Of a DNA stretch of 64,000 nucleotides, positions 9,150-39,400 are shown piece by piece; positions within the stretch are counted from its first letter, which is position 1, and each line of letters begins with the position of its first letter. The notes below the pieces were generated by a model, which was given only the letters and a program-made list of their open reading frames with translations, ran no database searches and was not told where the DNA came from. The position numbers were made by a program, and so were the translations under genes. The DNA is taken from positions 3,993,246 to 4,057,245 of the forward strand of contig NC_088296.1 of the NCBI RefSeq assembly GCF_032854445.1, given 5' to 3'. This stretch comes from Liolophura sinensis (Eukaryota; Mollusca; Polyplacophora; Chitonida; Chitonidae).

Positions 9150-12035
9150 CATCAATATTGGAACAAAATTACAACTCACATATTCCAAGACACGAGCAAA
9201 ACTTACATAATTTCAGTCTCAATGTAACTACAGAATCAGTCAAACTCACATCATTTCAGTCTCCATCTAACTACAGAATCAGTCAAACTCACATAATTTC
9301 AGTCTCGATGTAACTACAGAATCAGTCAAACTTACATAATTTCAGTCTCCATGTAACTACAGAATCAGTCAAACTTACATAATTTCAGTCTCAATGTAAC
9401 TACAGAATCAGTCAAACTTACATAATTTCAGTCTCCATGTAGGCACAGAATCAGTCAAACTTACATAATTTCAGTCTCCATCTAACTACAGAATCAGTCA
9501 AACTTACATAATTTCAGTCTCAATGCAACTACAGAATCAGTCAAACTTACATAATTTCAGTCTCCATCTAACTACAGAATCAGAAAAACTTACATAATTT
9601 TAGTCTCCATGTAAGCACAGAATCAGTCAAACTTACATAATTTCAGTCTCCATCTAACTACAGAATCAGTCAAACTTACATACTTTCAGTCTTCATCTAA
9701 CTACAGAATCAGTCAAACTCACATAATTTCAGTCTCCATGTAACTACAGAATCAGTCAAACTTACATAATTTCAGTCTCCACCTAACTACAGAATCAGTC
9801 AAACTCACATAATTTCAGTCTCCATGTAAGCACAGAATCAGTCAAACTTACATAATTTCAGTCTCCATGTAACTACAGAATCAGTCAAACTTACATAATT
9901 TCAGTCTCAATGTAACTACAGAATCAGTCAAACTCACATAATTTCAGTCTCCATGTAGGCACAGAATCAGTCAAACTTACATAATTTCAGTCTCCATCTA
10001 ACTACAGAATCAGTCAAACTTACATAATTTCAGTCTCAATGTAACTACAGAATCAGTCAAACTTACATAATTTCAGTCTCCATCTAACTACAGAATCAGA
10101 AAAACTTACATAATTTCAGTCTCCATGTAAGCACAGAATCAGTCAAACTTACATAATTTCAGTCTCCATCTAACTACAGAATCAGTCAAACTTACATAAT
10201 TTCAGTCTCCACCTAACTACAGAATCAGTCAAACTCACATAATTTCAGTCTCCATGTAAGCACAGAATCAGTCAAACTTACATAATTTCAGTCTCGATGT
10301 AACTACAGAATCAGTCAAACTTACATAATTTCAGTCTCAATGTAACTACAGAATCAGTCAAACTCACATAATTTCAGTCTCCATGTAGGCACAGAATCAG
10401 TCAAACTTACATAATTTCAGTCTCCATCTAACTACAGAATCAGTCAAACTTACATAATTTCAGTCTCCACCTAACTACAGAATCAGTCAAACTCACATAA
10501 TTTCAGTCTCCATGTAAGCACAGAATCAGTCAAACTCACATATATTCAGTCTCCATGTAGGCACAGAATCAGTCAATCTCACATAATTTCAGTCTCCATG
10601 TAGGCACAGAATCAGTCAAACTTACATAATTTCAGTCTCCATCTAACTACAGAATCAGTCAAACTTATATAATTTCAGTCTCCATCTAACTACAGAATCA
10701 GTCAAACTTACATAATTTCAGTCTCCATGTAAGCACAGAATCAGTCAAACTCACATAATTTCAGTCTCCAAGTAAGCACAGAATCAGTCAAACTTACATA
10801 ATTTCAGTCTCCATGTAGGCACAGAATCAGTCAAACTTACATACTTTCAGTCTCCATCTAACTACAGAATCAGTCAAGCTTACATAATTTCAGTCTCCAT
10901 GTAGGCACAGAATCAGTCAAACTCACATAATTTCAGTCTCCATGTAACTACAGAATCAGTCAAACTTACATAATTTCAGTCTCCATGTAACTACAGAATC
11001 AGTCAAACTTACATACATTCAGTCTCCATGTAAGCACAGAATCAGTCAAACTCACATAATTTCAGTCTCGATGTAACTACAGAATCAGTCAAACTTACAT
11101 AATTTCAGTCTCCACCTAACTACAGAATCAGTCAAACTTACATAATTTCAGTCTCCATGTAACTACAAAATAAGTCAAACTTACATAATTTCAGTCTCCA
11201 CCTAACTACAGAATCAGTCAAACTTACATAATTTCAGTCTCCATCTAACTACAGAATCAGTCAAACTTACATAATTTCAGTCTCCATGTAAGCACAGAAT
11301 CAGTCAAACTCACATAATTTCAGTCTCCATCTAACTACAGAATCAGTCAAACTTACATACTTTCAGTCTCCATGTAAGCACAGAATCAGTCAAACTTACA
11401 TACTTTCGGTCTCCATGTAAGCACAGAATCAGTCAAACTTACATACTTTCAGTCTCCATATAAGCACAGAATCAGTCAAACTTACATACTTTCAGTCTCC
11501 ATGTAACTACAGAATCAGTCAAACTTACATAATTTTAGTCTCCATGCAACTACAGAATCAGTCAAACTTACATACTTTCAGTCTCCATGTAAGCACAGAA
11601 TCAGTCAAACTTACATACTTTCAGTCTCCATGTAAGCACAGAATCAGTCAAACTTACATAATTTCAGTCTCCATCTAACTACAGAATCAGTCAAACTCAC
11701 ATAATTTCAGTCTCCATGTAACTACAGAATCAGTCAAACTTACATAATTTCAGTCTCCATGTAACTACAGAATCAGTCAAACTTACATAATTTCAGTCTC
11801 CATGTAAGCAGAGAATTAGTCAAACTCACATAATTTCAGTCTCCATGTAGGCACAGAATCAGTCAAACTTACATAATTTTAGTCTAGATATAACTACAGA
11901 ATCAGTCAAACTTACATAATTTCAGTCTCAATGTAAGCACAGAATCAGTCAAACTCACATAATTTCAGTCTCCATGTAAGCACAGAATCAGTCAAACTTA
12001 CATAATTTCAGTCTCCATCTAACTACAGAACCAGT
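9150..12035. repeat. 43-bp satellite array, about 66 units
   Basis: The unit is cataatttcagtctccat followed by ctaactacagaatcagtc and aaactta. Variant units (taactac or taagcac or taggcac) are intermixed. On the strand of the large gene each unit contains atgtaagt, a splice-donor-like string. The array fills almost a third of intron 5. Confidence 0.97.
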
Positions 12036-17576: not shown

Positions 17577-18177
17577 CAACGGTAATGAGGCAACTTACCT
17601 GGTTAAGGTACTGAAGCAACTTACCTGGTAAAGGTAATGAGGCAACTTACCTGGTTAAGGTAATGAAGCAACTTACCTGGCTAAGGTAATGAGGCCACTT
17701 ACCTGGTTAAGGTAATGGGGCAGATTATTTGGCTAAAGCAATGAATCAGTTCACCTGGCTAAGGCAATGAGACAAATTTACCTGGCTGAGGTAATGAGGT
17801 AAATTACCTGGCTCAGGTAAATGAGGGAACTTACCTGGTTAACAAAATGAGGCAGCTTACCTGGTTAAGGTAAATGAGGGAACTTACCTAGTTAAGACAA
17901 TGACGCAGCTTAACTACCTGGCTGATGTAATGAGGCAGCTTACCTGATTCAGACAATGACGCAGCTTACCTGACCTAAGCAATGAGGTTCACTACCTGGC
18001 TAATATAATAAGGCAGCTTTCCTGGCTACTATAATGAGGTAGCTTACCTGGGTATGACAATGAGGCAACTTACCTGACTATGACAATGAGGCAACTTACC
18101 TGGCTATGACAATGAGGCAACTTACCTGGCTAAGAAAATAAGTCAACTTACCTGGCTAAGACAATGAGAGAGCTTAC
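17577..18177 (-). repeat. 26-bp minisatellite that starts at the exon 4 splice donor
   Basis: Read on the minus strand there are 23 units of the type gtaagttgcctcattgtctt followed by agccag. The first unit begins exactly at the GT of the exon 4 donor. Most junctions read CAG|GTAAGT or CAG|GTAAGC. Confidence 0.95.
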
Positions 18178-24006: not shown

Positions 24007-25149
24007 TATTTCTATAATTCATCCTTGCAAGTAATCCTTCTATAATTCATCCTTGCAATTAACGCATGAAAGTGATAAAAAAACATCAATGCCACAGATT
24101 TAAAATCTAATGAATAAATTTCCCATTCCATTCAATTAACAGTGAATTCACCCACAGAAATCACAGACTGAATTAATCACTACCTTCCTCCCATTACCCC
24201 ACAAACTTGCCATATCTGTTTTATTCCTGGCCTAGTCGTATTACGCCGCCATATGTTCAAACTGCGTAATAAAATCCCCAAGAATGGCTGTTAAAATATT
24301 TGCTTCAGTGCACATAGTGAAATGCACATGATTCAAAATTCCCTGTTCCCAGCAACCAGATTGAGGAATGCAGAGATTCTGAAGTTGTTGCTATATAGGA
24401 TGTTATGGAGACAAAGCATGTGGCAAACAAATGTTAATTCTGGACGAGCTTAATATGCCCAATATATTTGTTTTTCGGCAACTTTTTTTAAAATACATTA
24501 TAAGACATAAAATAACAGTGCAATGGAAATACACCAAACTATTTACAGGCAATACATGTATTTCAAGATGCATACGTATTTAACTGTTCCAAAAATCACT
24601 TCATTTTCAGACAAATTTCTCCAATGATATCTGTCACAGTATTTGACCCCAATGGAAAGTCAAAAAACTACATGCTTTGTACTTAAAAGTTTGTTGTATT
24701 ATACCACGAGAACTTGCATTTAGTCTTTAAAGTTGTACGGTTCGGCTGCGACTTTAAATCACTGGATACCTGGAGTAAGATATCCCACTTTTCTCCAAGT
24801 GTAAATTGATTTCATAGTGACAGGACACTGGAGAATGCATGTCAACTCAACCCTTACAGAGTGTCTACCGAATTTCCCTGAGTTCTGATGTATGTATTAC
24901 CGTATTACTATTGATGTCATATATCATTCTAACAAATCATGATGATGATGCAGTGCATATATTACTTAAGGAGTTCATATGTACAGGAGTTATTTTAGAA
25001 CCATTTGAGACAAAAAATCTAACATACACAGTAGTAGACTGACAGATTATGTACACTAATTCTCGGGATGATGCACCCAGTGCTAGTGACATCTCACTAA
25101 TTGTCGAGGATCAGTGCATTCCTTAATTCAGATCTTCATGACTGCTTAT
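24007..25149. other. Intron 1 sequence, nothing recognised
   Basis: AT-rich unique sequence without a supportable exon or repeat. Confidence 0.45.
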
Positions 25150-25600
25150 GTTAGAACCATTTAGCCCACAACCATTTAAGGCAGAACCATTTGGGGCAGA
25201 ACCATTTAAGGCAGAACCATTTGGGGCAGAACCATTTAAGGCAGAACCATTTGGGGCAGACCCATCTAAGGCAGAACCATTTGGGGCAGACCCATCTAAG
25301 GCAGAACCATTTGGGGCAGACCCATCTAAGGCAGAACCATTTGGGGCAGACCCATCTAAGGCAGAACCATTTGGGGCAGGCCCATCTAAGGCAGAGCAAT
25401 TTAAGGCAGAGCAATTTGGGGCAGACCCATCTAAGGCAGAACCACTTATAAGGCAGACCCATTTTAAGGCAGAGCAATTTGGGGCAGACCCATCTAAGGC
25501 AGAACCACTTATAAGGCAGACCCATTTTAAGGCAGACTCATTTAACACAGACCCACTTAAAGCAGAACCATTTAAAGCAGAATCATTTAGGGCAGAACCA
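25150..25600. repeat. 30-bp minisatellite upstream of the Frizzled-domain gene
   Basis: About 14 units of aaggcagaaccatttggggc followed by agacccatct. Unit length is a multiple of three. It ends about 750 bases before the coding start. Confidence 0.95.
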
Positions 25601-25899
25601 TTTAAGAAGAAAATAGTAAATCATTCAAAGAATCATTCATGACATCCCAACTACCATGATTATATTTCTAACAGATTGCTCTAAAACAATAATGCTCAAG
25701 ACACAGGTACTCTAATAGTTGTATGCATAAATTCCACTGATGGATTGTTTCAGATCTCCAAAATGCTTAACATTTACCATACACCAATTTGGCCGTGATA
25801 AAAGAGCTTTGTATTTGTACTACTTCTGTTACATGCACTCTGGAAACTTCTGTAACCCAGACATTATGCAATAGGCAGAGTCAAAACAAACATGTGGGC

Positions 25900-26349: not shown

Positions 26350-27501
26350 ATGTTGTTCAATGTCAAGGTGTTGTTTGTTGTTGTTGCAATCTGTGCACTT
26401 TGGGCAGAGCTGACCACAGGGCAAGACGGTAATCCAAGGAGACAGCGGCGACCTGGGGCCAGGCGACCAGGAGGTCCACGCGCAAGGCAGCGGCGACCAA
26501 ATGTTGCTGGAGGAAGACCTCGGGTCCAGGGGAATGGACAAGCAGGTGGACAGGCGGCAGGTGCTAACAGATCGCCTGGAGGCGGCAGACCAGCCAGACC
26601 TGGCATAGGGCAGCCAGGCACAGACGCTGGGAGACAGGGTGCTGGACGAGCAAACGCAACAGGGACAAGTGGATCTGGCGGACCGTTTTGTCAGAAAATC
26701 ATGGTACCAATGTGTAAAGGTCAAATAGGTTACGAGTACACACGCCTGCCGAACCAATTTGGACACCGCACACAGGGTGAAGTCATGGAAACGCTGGAGC
26801 CTTTCTGGCCATTCATGGACATGGACTGTTCACCCAACTTCCGACTGACTGCCTGCGCCACATATCTCCCCAAATGCATCGAACGGCGTCGCCTTGTGCT
26901 GCCACCGTGTCGACAGTCATGCATGAAAGCGAAACGGCAGTGTCGCAATGCATTCAGCCAGTACAAGAAGCGATGGCCGTCCCAGTTCAACTGCGCTCGC
27001 TTCCCACGCTTGGCCAAAAACCGTCCAGGCGTGTGCGTGCCACCATCGAAACGCGCACCAACGCAGCCACTTGACGAGACTACCTGTGTCGCCAACACAG
27101 TCCCACTGTGCTCTGGCTTCCCACATTTCGAGGCGTTCATCCCGAACATGTTCTGGCAGTCTTCCTTAGACCTGATCTCACGGGAACTCGGCCAGTACCA
27201 AGAGCTCGTAGACACAGGGTGCAACCCAAACCTGTCCTTCTTCCTCTGTGGGATTTACCTCCCTTTCTGCCAGGATGTTGCGACAGAGTTTGCTGTGCCC
27301 TGTCGCGAAGTCTGCGAGCAAGTGCGTGCAGACTGCGAGGATGACCTACAGAGGACTTATGGGATTAACTGGCCAGGAAAGCTTCAGTGTCACCGTTATC
27401 CAACCGCCAGTAACGACGTGCAACAGTGTGTTCACCCGAATGCTACAGAGATCGAGCGGACCCCAGACCCGGAAGATGAGGACTACCTAGACGAGGAGTA
27501 A
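26350..27501 (+). CDS. Secreted protein with two tandem Frizzled cysteine-rich domains, intronless
   Basis: A single open frame of 383 residues. The start is the ATG at 26350 (A at -3); the frame is open upstream to a TTG at 26320 but has no earlier ATG there. Residues 1-24 form a signal peptide with a VLFVVVAICALWA core. Residues 25-112 are basic and rich in Gly, Arg, Gln and Pro. The first Frizzled CRD spans Cys114-Cys229 (cysteines 114, 122, 160, 169, 176, 187, 191, 198, 215, 229) and keeps the family signatures MC, LPN, GH, CSPNF, PPCR and WP. The second spans Cys246-Cys360 (246, 254, 291, 300, 307, 318, 322, 329, 347, 360). The tail is acidic (EDEDYLDEE). N-glycosylation sequons include NAT at 102, NLS at 294 and NAT at 364. 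No NTR domain, transmembrane helix or protease domain follows. Frizzled CRDs bind Wnt lipids, so a role as extracellular Wnt modulator or matrix component is inferred. It lies antisense in intron 1 of the large minus-strand gene. Confidence 0.93.
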   Translation: MLFNVKVLFVVVAICALWAELTTGQDGNPRRQRRPGARRPGGPRARQRRPNVAGGRPRVQGNGQAGGQAAGANRSPGGGRPARPGIGQPGTDAGRQGAGRANATGTSGSGGPFCQKIMVPMCKGQIGYEYTRLPNQFGHRTQGEVMETLEPFWPFMDMDCSPNFRLTACATYLPKCIERRRLVLPPCRQSCMKAKRQCRNAFSQYKKRWPSQFNCARFPRLAKNRPGVCVPPSKRAPTQPLDETTCVANTVPLCSGFPHFEAFIPNMFWQSSLDLISRELGQYQELVDTGCNPNLSFFLCGIYLPFCQDVATEFAVPCREVCEQVRADCEDDLQRTYGINWPGKLQCHRYPTASNDVQQCVHPNATEIERTPDPEDEDYLDEE

Positions 27502-27815
27502 GTTACCATAACAACTGTATTACCATGGCAACAGTAACTTTGGACAGATCACCATGACAACTGGAGACATTTCAAACTAGAGTATGTAACTGTGTTCAGG
27601 ACAGTTTCTGTACTTTCTCGTTTAAGAGGAAAAAAACTATAACATCTCAATGGCTGACTGAGTCCTCTACTTTTCCCCCAAACTATACAGAACTTCTACC
27701 ACTGTCTGTATCTGAGTATAAGAGTTTGCTAACTGAAAGATGTTGAGTAGCATTCAAAGCCCAGCAAAACTAAAATGGTGCAGACATTTTTTCAGACTTT
27801 ACTGGATATTTCTGA

Positions 27816-27821
27816 AATAAA
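27816..27821 (+). terminator. Candidate polyadenylation signal of the Frizzled-domain gene
   Basis: AATAAA lies about 315 bases after the stop codon and is followed by a GT-rich stretch (gtttggttatgtgt), as expected for a cleavage site. A second AATAAA near 28855 is a weaker alternative. Confidence 0.5.
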
Positions 27822-38010: not shown

Positions 38011-38204
38011 CTGGATAAATAAATTAATAAATCAACAAATGAATACAATTCAACTACATGAATATCAGCAAGAATGTCAACAATGTTCTTAAGCTGGCTA
38101 GTCTTAATTTGTTAGCTATTTGTTTTTCCATTCATAAGAGTTACATGAAATATATTAAATGTTCAGCAGTATTCAAATGCACACACGTCATATCAATAAC
38201 TTGT

Positions 38205-39050
38205 GCCTCTCATAATACAGAGAGCTACACTGTCAGTGGATGTTACTGCTGTCCCTGTAATACAGATAGCTACACTGTCAGTGGATGCTACTGCTGTCCC
38301 TGTAATACAGATAGCTACACTGTCAGTGGATGCTACTGCTGTCCCTGTAATACAGACAGCTACACTGTCAGTGGATGCTACTGCTGTCCCTGTAATACAG
38401 ACAGCTACACTGTCAGTGGATGCTACTGCTGTCCCTGTAATACAGAGAGCTACACTGTCAGTGGACGCTACTGCTGTCCCTGTAATACAGATAGCTACAC
38501 TGTCAGTGGACGCTACTGCTGTCCCTGTAATACAGATAGCTACACTGTCAGTGGATGCTACTGCTGTCCCTGTAATACAGAGAGCTACACTGTCAGTGGA
38601 TGCTACTGCTGTCCCTGTAATACAGAGAGCTACACTGTCAGTGGATGCTACTGCTGTCCCTGTAATACAGACAGCTACACTGTCAGTGGATCCTACAGCT
38701 GTCCCTGGAATACAGATAGCTACACTGTCAGTGGATGTTACTGCTGTCCCTGTAATACAGAGAGCTACACTGTCAGTGGATCCTACAGCTGTCCCTGTAA
38801 TACAGACAGCTACACTGTCAGTCGATCCTACTGCTGTCCCTGGAAAACAGACAGCTACACTGTCAGTGGATGCTACTGCTGTCCCTATAATACAGAGCTA
38901 CACTGTCAGTGGACGCTACTGCTGTCCCTATACTACAGAGCTACACTGTCAGTGGACGCTACTGCTGTCCCTATACTACAGAGCTACACTGTCAGTGGAC
39001 GCTACTGCTGTCTGTATAATACAGAGCTACACTGTCAGTGGATGCTACAA
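38205..39050. repeat. 45-bp satellite array, about 18 units
   Basis: The unit is agctacactgtcagtggatg followed by ctactgctgtccctgtaat and acagat. It is open in two plus frames (SYTVSGCYCCPCNTD and ATLSVDATAVPVIQR). The last units lose two bases each and shift frame. Confidence 0.95.
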
Positions 39051-39400
39051 CTGTCCACTTTGTATCCACTTTTCTCTCTTTTTTTCCTTTTTGTCTAGGT
39101 TTCAATCACTGCAATTTTCATGTGACCATACTTCCACACTCCTCGCAGTGTGAGCATAATGCACATTAAGCTGGTGAGGGCCACTACCGTATTTCTTCTA
39201 AATTTTGGGACACCTCAGGGCTGCTCAATTTAGCCAATATATATGTAATTATAGCAGGAGTTTCTTTTTTCTCACTTGCTTAGGCCATCAAATGAACAAC
39301 ATACTCATATCTTTTCTTAAAGACTGCTGGAATAATGTAACATGCTACTTTCAACACTACTAATATCTGTCTCAAATTTTAGAAGAATAAGGGTAATATG

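Follow-up and report, generated by a model that had tools for sequence, protein, structure and literature searches.

What kind of gene encodes two Frizzled CRDs in tandem and no other domain, and where could it have come from? The question is raised by C2:3993246-4057245 of Liolophura sinensis, the 64-kb stretch of DNA analysed here and called the window. An initial annotation of this stretch, made from the sequence alone, took it to be molluscan, and it does belong to a chiton. The assembly was published under the name Liolophura japonica, with 632 scaffolds according to the assembly description in PMC11068029, and the name was later corrected to L. sinensis (PMC12441733). The genome used for our profile searches has 632 contigs and 609.46 Mb; contigs C1, C12, C4, C11, C3 and C2 correspond in length to scaffolds 1, 8, 12, 7, 11 and 10 of the published assembly.

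The tandem-CRD frame and its product

The frame and its surroundings contain the following features, all on the + strand.

26350..26421, +: predicted signal peptide, residues 1-24, by inspection
26422..26688, +: basic low-complexity leader, residues 25-113, with 24 Gly, 17 Arg and 11 Pro, net charge +15 and no Pfam match
26689..27036, +: CRD1 (Fz), residues 114-229, ten cysteines, net charge +14, nearest Frizzled 5/8
27037..27084, +: linker of 16 residues, 230-245
27085..27429, +: CRD2 (Fz), residues 246-360, ten cysteines, net charge -8, FFLC motif kept
27430..27501, +: acidic C-terminal tail, residues 361-383, and stop codon, net charge -9
27498..27503, +: weak candidate phase-2 splice donor GTAAGT over the stop codon
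27816..27821, +: possible polyadenylation signal AATAAA (match to the AATAAA/ATTAAA motif), about 315 bases 3' of the stop

The frame begins with the ATG at 26350, ends with the TAA at 27499-27501 and encodes 383 residues. It is open from 26302 with no ATG upstream of 26350, and its 399 codons from stop to stop make it the longest frame in the window (the runner-up has 351). Pfam recognizes two Fz stretches with an E-value of 1.7e-47 and a score of 161 bits, the cut-off being 32.1; up to E 1 it lists just one more family, DUF5358, below threshold at 0.25. The genome-wide profile search gives 3.7e-24 and 1.1e-19 for the two domains. The predicted mature protein, of about 40 kDa and pI about 9, has 20 cysteines, 10 in each CRD, and all of them fall in the ten conserved columns; from the last cysteine of CRD1 (229) to the first of CRD2 (246) there are 16 intervening residues. 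Because of the Fz scores and the ten conserved cysteines per domain, the two-CRD frame is real, far beyond chance. Thus the initial description of two complete ten-cysteine CRDs with a 16-residue linker, a basic leader and no further domain above threshold is borne out, and the arrangement of signal peptide, basic leader, CRD and CRD is uncommon but real.

Secretion, also proposed before, agrees with inspection of the sequence, which gives a putative signal peptide and CRDs without a membrane segment. Two AlphaFold (AF2) models of the protein are of low confidence (mean pLDDT 41.1 and 41.3); in such a low-confidence model residues 2-23 form a helix, with pLDDT 72 for residues 1-10 and 80 for residues 11-20. 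There are four N-glycosylation motifs, at residues 73, 102, 294 and 364. The net charge is +15 in the leader, +14 in CRD1, 0 in the linker, -8 in CRD2 and -9 in the tail, so that the protein is a dipole with a basic N-terminal half and an acidic C-terminal half. The earlier description mentioned the basic leader alone; the acidic CRD2 and tail are added here.

The rest of the window was also surveyed. Pfam was run on ten other frames, and one of the ten exceeded a cut-off: a helix-turn-helix frame at 2049-2393 on the - strand (HTH_28, E 2.6e-7). It adjoins a frame at 1375-1890 on the same strand, transposase-like by eye with no Pfam match, and together the two frames are probably a mobile element. 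Tandem-repeat DNA at 25126-25639 and 38043-39150 holds several open frames on both strands, 128-351 codons long, which are probably not genes.

Origin of the CRDs and structure of the gene

From which family do the two CRDs come? They are 27-29% identical to each other. CRD1 is 37-42% identical to Frizzled 5/8 CRDs, and its nearest relative in the genome by tblastn is the chiton Frizzled 5/8 (2e-23); here and below, the names of the chiton receptors are our own assignments from their frames, family features and alignment identities. Against solved structures, CRD1 matches the Frizzled 8 crystal chains best (108.2 bits) with Frizzled 5 a close second, and all 43 of the matches listed are Frizzled, sFRP3 or sizzled. 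For CRD2 the best structure is again Frizzled 8, at 90.6 bits, likewise with Frizzled 5 not far off and with Frizzled 2 at 77, while the nearest chiton genes are Frizzled 1/2/7 (5e-19) and then Frizzled 5/8 (4e-17). In a tree of 17 rows, whose bootstrap had not settled, CRD1 lies within the Frizzled 5/8 group with support 94/94 (not starred); the grouping of CRD2 with sizzled and the sFRP1/2/5-like chiton CRD is weak, at 74/85. Both places are unsure because the terminal branches of the two CRDs are very long, 3.9 and 5.5 changes per column. CRD2 thus appears without firm family placement, and the placement of CRD1 is unsure as well. Internal tandem duplication was considered as the origin of the pair and set aside on the 27-29% identity and on the best tree, where the two are not sisters; yet the AU test does not reject trees in which they are sisters (p 0.082) or both belong to Frizzled 5/8 (p 0.115). 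A search for relatives in viral contigs and GTDB genomes gave 1 and 11 pattern matches, respectively, and zero tblastn matches.

The profile search found Fz matches at 26 places in the genome. By our reading, they comprise four Frizzled receptors, an sFRP3/4-like CRD, an sFRP1/2/5-like CRD, one CRD on C1, four places on C11, a pair on C12, the pair in the window, five weak places on C3 and six others, two of which were inspected. The sFRP3/4-like CRD on C6 has 192 bits to sFRP3 and an NTR match 7.7 kb downstream; the sFRP1/2/5-like CRD at C6:42.28 Mb is nearest to sizzled, with 128 bits. Two further loci have predicted secreted CRDs.

C12:24427054-24429006 (L001:3055-5007): two-CRD gene, two exons joined in frame with phase 1/1, intron of 1190 bases
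C11:10262000-10299999: tandem array of four near-identical copies of a small signal peptide-CRD exon, about 9-13 kb apart

The C12 gene is predicted to encode a signal peptide, a CRD, a 10-residue spacer and another CRD. Its second exon is followed by another phase-1 donor, after which no third exon was found, and its CRDs join the C11 secreted CRD in the tree with 80/79. In the C11 array the fourth match is shorter and has an internal stop. On C3:5411442-5424890, five weak Fz-like exons share a strand and span 13.4 kb; they may belong to a single gene with five divergent CRDs. The architecture in the window had been called unusual; since the C12 locus predicts a second signal peptide-CRD-CRD protein, uncommon is the part that stands, and unique in this genome it is not. 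Provided that the C12 gene lacks a further domain, this one genome seems to have reached secreted two-CRD products along two routes.

The gene in the window reads as one exon from the signal peptide through CRD2 to the stop, with no intron within or between the CRDs. In the four chiton Frizzled receptors the CRDs are likewise intron-free, in open frames of 525-608 codons. Note that the chiton Frizzled 5/8 gene may not be intronless throughout, since its frame breaks in the seven-helix part and resumes in another frame (L004:2631-3005). The other chiton CRD exons are built differently: all six of those examined (both exons of the C12 gene, one of the four C11 copies, the sFRP3/4-like and sFRP1/2/5-like exons on C6 and the exon at C1:0.396 Mb) have a phase-1 GTRAG donor 5-13 codons past the last CRD cysteine, and the tandem-CRD gene lacks such a donor at that place. 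Together, the tree and the intron-free CRDs favour a receptor gene as the source, and the protein is probably receptor-derived.

Is the frame then a whole gene, or one exon of a larger one? The stop codon lies inside GTAAGT, therefore a phase-2 donor is possible, GA|GTAAGT at 27498, and with it the stop would be intronic. This hexamer is rare on the + strand of the window (14 copies, one of them over the stop), and a C11 CRD exon seemingly uses the comparably imperfect AGT|GTAAGT. Moreover, any exon that ends in phase 2 at a GTAAGT donor shows TAA here. Against a donor at this place, the site scores only 1.96, as high a score being reached by 165 of the 3598 + strand GT sites in the window, against 2.64-8.54 for the donors of the six CRD exons, all phase 1; these scores come from a human donor matrix. 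On the - strand, 58 of the 66 GTAAGT matches come from tandem arrays at 9206-12001 and 17598-18151, whose repeat units are about 43 and 26 bases long. Between 27511 and 47000 (19.5 kb) there are seven phase-2 frames of at least 40 codons behind an acceptor-like site; three of them belong to the tandem repeat at 38.0-39.2 kb, and Pfam recognizes nothing in the remaining four at E up to 0.1. The AATAAA at 27816 also speaks for an end close behind the stop. No NTR was matched on C2 among the five candidates scored with E up to 10, in a genome search of limited sensitivity for divergent or split exons, since it was equally negative around the sFRP1/2/5-like CRD at C6:42.28 Mb. The initial annotation had named splicing to further exons with NTR, membrane or protease domains as what would speak against it, and our DNA searches gave no convincing next exon. 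A larger gene is a rather unlikely reading.

More specific candidates were tried. A spliced sFRP was rejected with no NTR match on C2, and a corin-like gene was rejected with Fz as the only Pfam family above threshold in the frame and no LDLa, SRCR or trypsin pattern in the window. Regular expressions for LDLa, trypsin, SRCR, ShK and EGF, run without a positive control, matched neither in the window nor at the two C12 loci. When the four chiton Frizzled frames were compared with the window by tblastn in search of a seven-helix remnant, only the two CRDs matched and nothing else below E 0.1.

Groove residues and possible function

There is a further question of what the two CRDs could bind. As a reference, seven Frizzled CRDs, four from the chiton and three of solved structure, define 31 always-hydrophobic columns and 24 invariant non-cysteine columns. 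CRD1 keeps 22 and CRD2 23 of the 31 hydrophobic columns, compared with 30 in the chiton sFRP3/4-like CRD and 21, 21, 25, 25 and 25 in five other chiton CRDs. Of the invariant columns CRD1 keeps 16/24 and CRD2 13/24, the latter being the minimum among the eight non-reference CRDs compared (14-21 in the rest). We take positions 74, 78, 87, 91, 95, 121 and 127, in Frizzled 8 numbering, to have a role in the lipid groove. At positions 87, 91, 95 and 127 CRD1 has T, T, K and K (F87T, M91T, I95K and F127K) and CRD2 has F, I, F and I; some hydrophobic residues common to all seven Frizzled CRDs are lost in CRD1. CRD2 retains the FFLC motif, where CRD1 has LTAC instead. CRD2 carries E, T and D at positions 74, 78 and 121, and the E at 74 is common to it and the sFRP3/4-like CRD. 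The YNxT motif is absent from both.

The sequence proxies of Wnt binding are mixed. Judged by the residues at the compared groove positions, lipid binding is more to be expected of CRD2, while CRD1 is probably repurposed and has probably lost the standard binding of the Wnt lipid. The previous suggestion of a Wnt trap is thus plausible for CRD2, and two equal Wnt-binding sites are doubtful because of the hydrophobic positions lost in CRD1. It should be noted that the CRD of ROR2 is described in PMC11219042 as having no groove and still binding Wnt.

We give about an even chance to the following scenario, in which a single-exon gene encodes a secreted tandem-CRD modulator of Wnt/Frizzled signalling, derived from a receptor and held in the matrix. 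The source would be a Frizzled 5/8-like receptor gene without an intron in its CRD, which would have lost the seven-helix part and acquired a second CRD. With a charge of +29 between them, the leader and CRD1 may bind sulphated glycans or other polyanionic matrix, and the acidic CRD2 (-8), with more of the compared groove positions kept, may take up the Wnt lipid. The outcome would be a decoy or a local Wnt carrier fixed in the matrix. In a bolder form, to which we assign a low probability, the protein would be a charge-polarised Wnt clamp of chitons: CRD1, formerly lipid-binding, would have become the basic anchor to sulphated glycans or partner CRDs and CRD2 would catch Wnt, making a Wnt sink fixed in the matrix by a route independent of the CRD-NTR sFRPs. 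If that were true, this genome would have acquired secreted tandem-CRD proteins on two or more occasions, once intronless and once from phase 1/1 exons.

Could the product instead be a structural protein of the matrix, heparin-binding, with its CRDs as disulphide scaffolds that do not bind Wnt? The Gly/Arg/Pro-rich leader, the charge of CRD1 and its four groove substitutions would suit this, and a matrix protein, as the initial annotation alternatively had it, is compatible with the basic leader in the sense of a fit. Contigs with a Frizzled domain were reported in shell-damage responses of oyster and mussel (PMC8194122 and PMC8382897); their architecture may differ from that of the tandem-CRD protein. 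Since FFLC is intact in CRD2 and its residues at 87, 91, 95 and 127 are hydrophobic, we consider a purely structural role rather unlikely. Much less likely still is a pseudogene, that is, a decaying or non-functional receptor fragment. The long branches of both CRDs would be expected of it, yet 383 codons are free of stops, all 20 cysteines (20/20) are retained and the window holds no receptor remnant. An open frame and a full set of cysteines in spite of very long branches would rather point to selection that maintains a folded product.

Comparison with known systems

How does the proposed secreted modulator compare with known CRD proteins? It resembles the Frizzled 5/8 receptor in the identity of CRD1, the 94/94 grouping and the CRD without intron, and differs from it by the missing seven-helix part, the second CRD, the basic leader and the lost hydrophobic positions. 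CRD-bearing secreted Wnt antagonists are usually CRD-NTR proteins. Like sFRP3/4, sFRP1/2/5 and sizzled, the protein is predicted to be a secreted CRD protein without a membrane part; unlike the sFRPs it has two CRDs, no NTR domain found and no phase-1 donor past the CRDs. Corin also has two Fz domains in one protein, but it is membrane-anchored and, in the domain description of PMC9138375, carries eight LDL-receptor repeats and scavenger-receptor-like and trypsin-like domains, motifs of which the regular-expression search mentioned above found none. The C12 gene shares the predicted signal peptide and two CRDs, and differs in its two phase 1/1 exons, the further donor and the lack of a basic leader. 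In the open-licence literature we found no description of a secreted two-CRD Frizzled-related protein. The sFRPs of sponges are treated in PMC6386478, and expression of Frizzled 5/8 in larval chitons is reported in PMC4689004, where the passages on it do not mention sFRP.

Since the genome appears to carry a second, differently built two-domain gene, the tandem-CRD protein may be regarded as a modest architectural variation on a well-known domain, for which a role in Wnt control is plausible. A basic leader where sFRPs have the NTR, and a second two-CRD gene that differs in its exons, suggest that receptor CRDs were the material from which chitons rebuilt part of their extracellular Wnt control.
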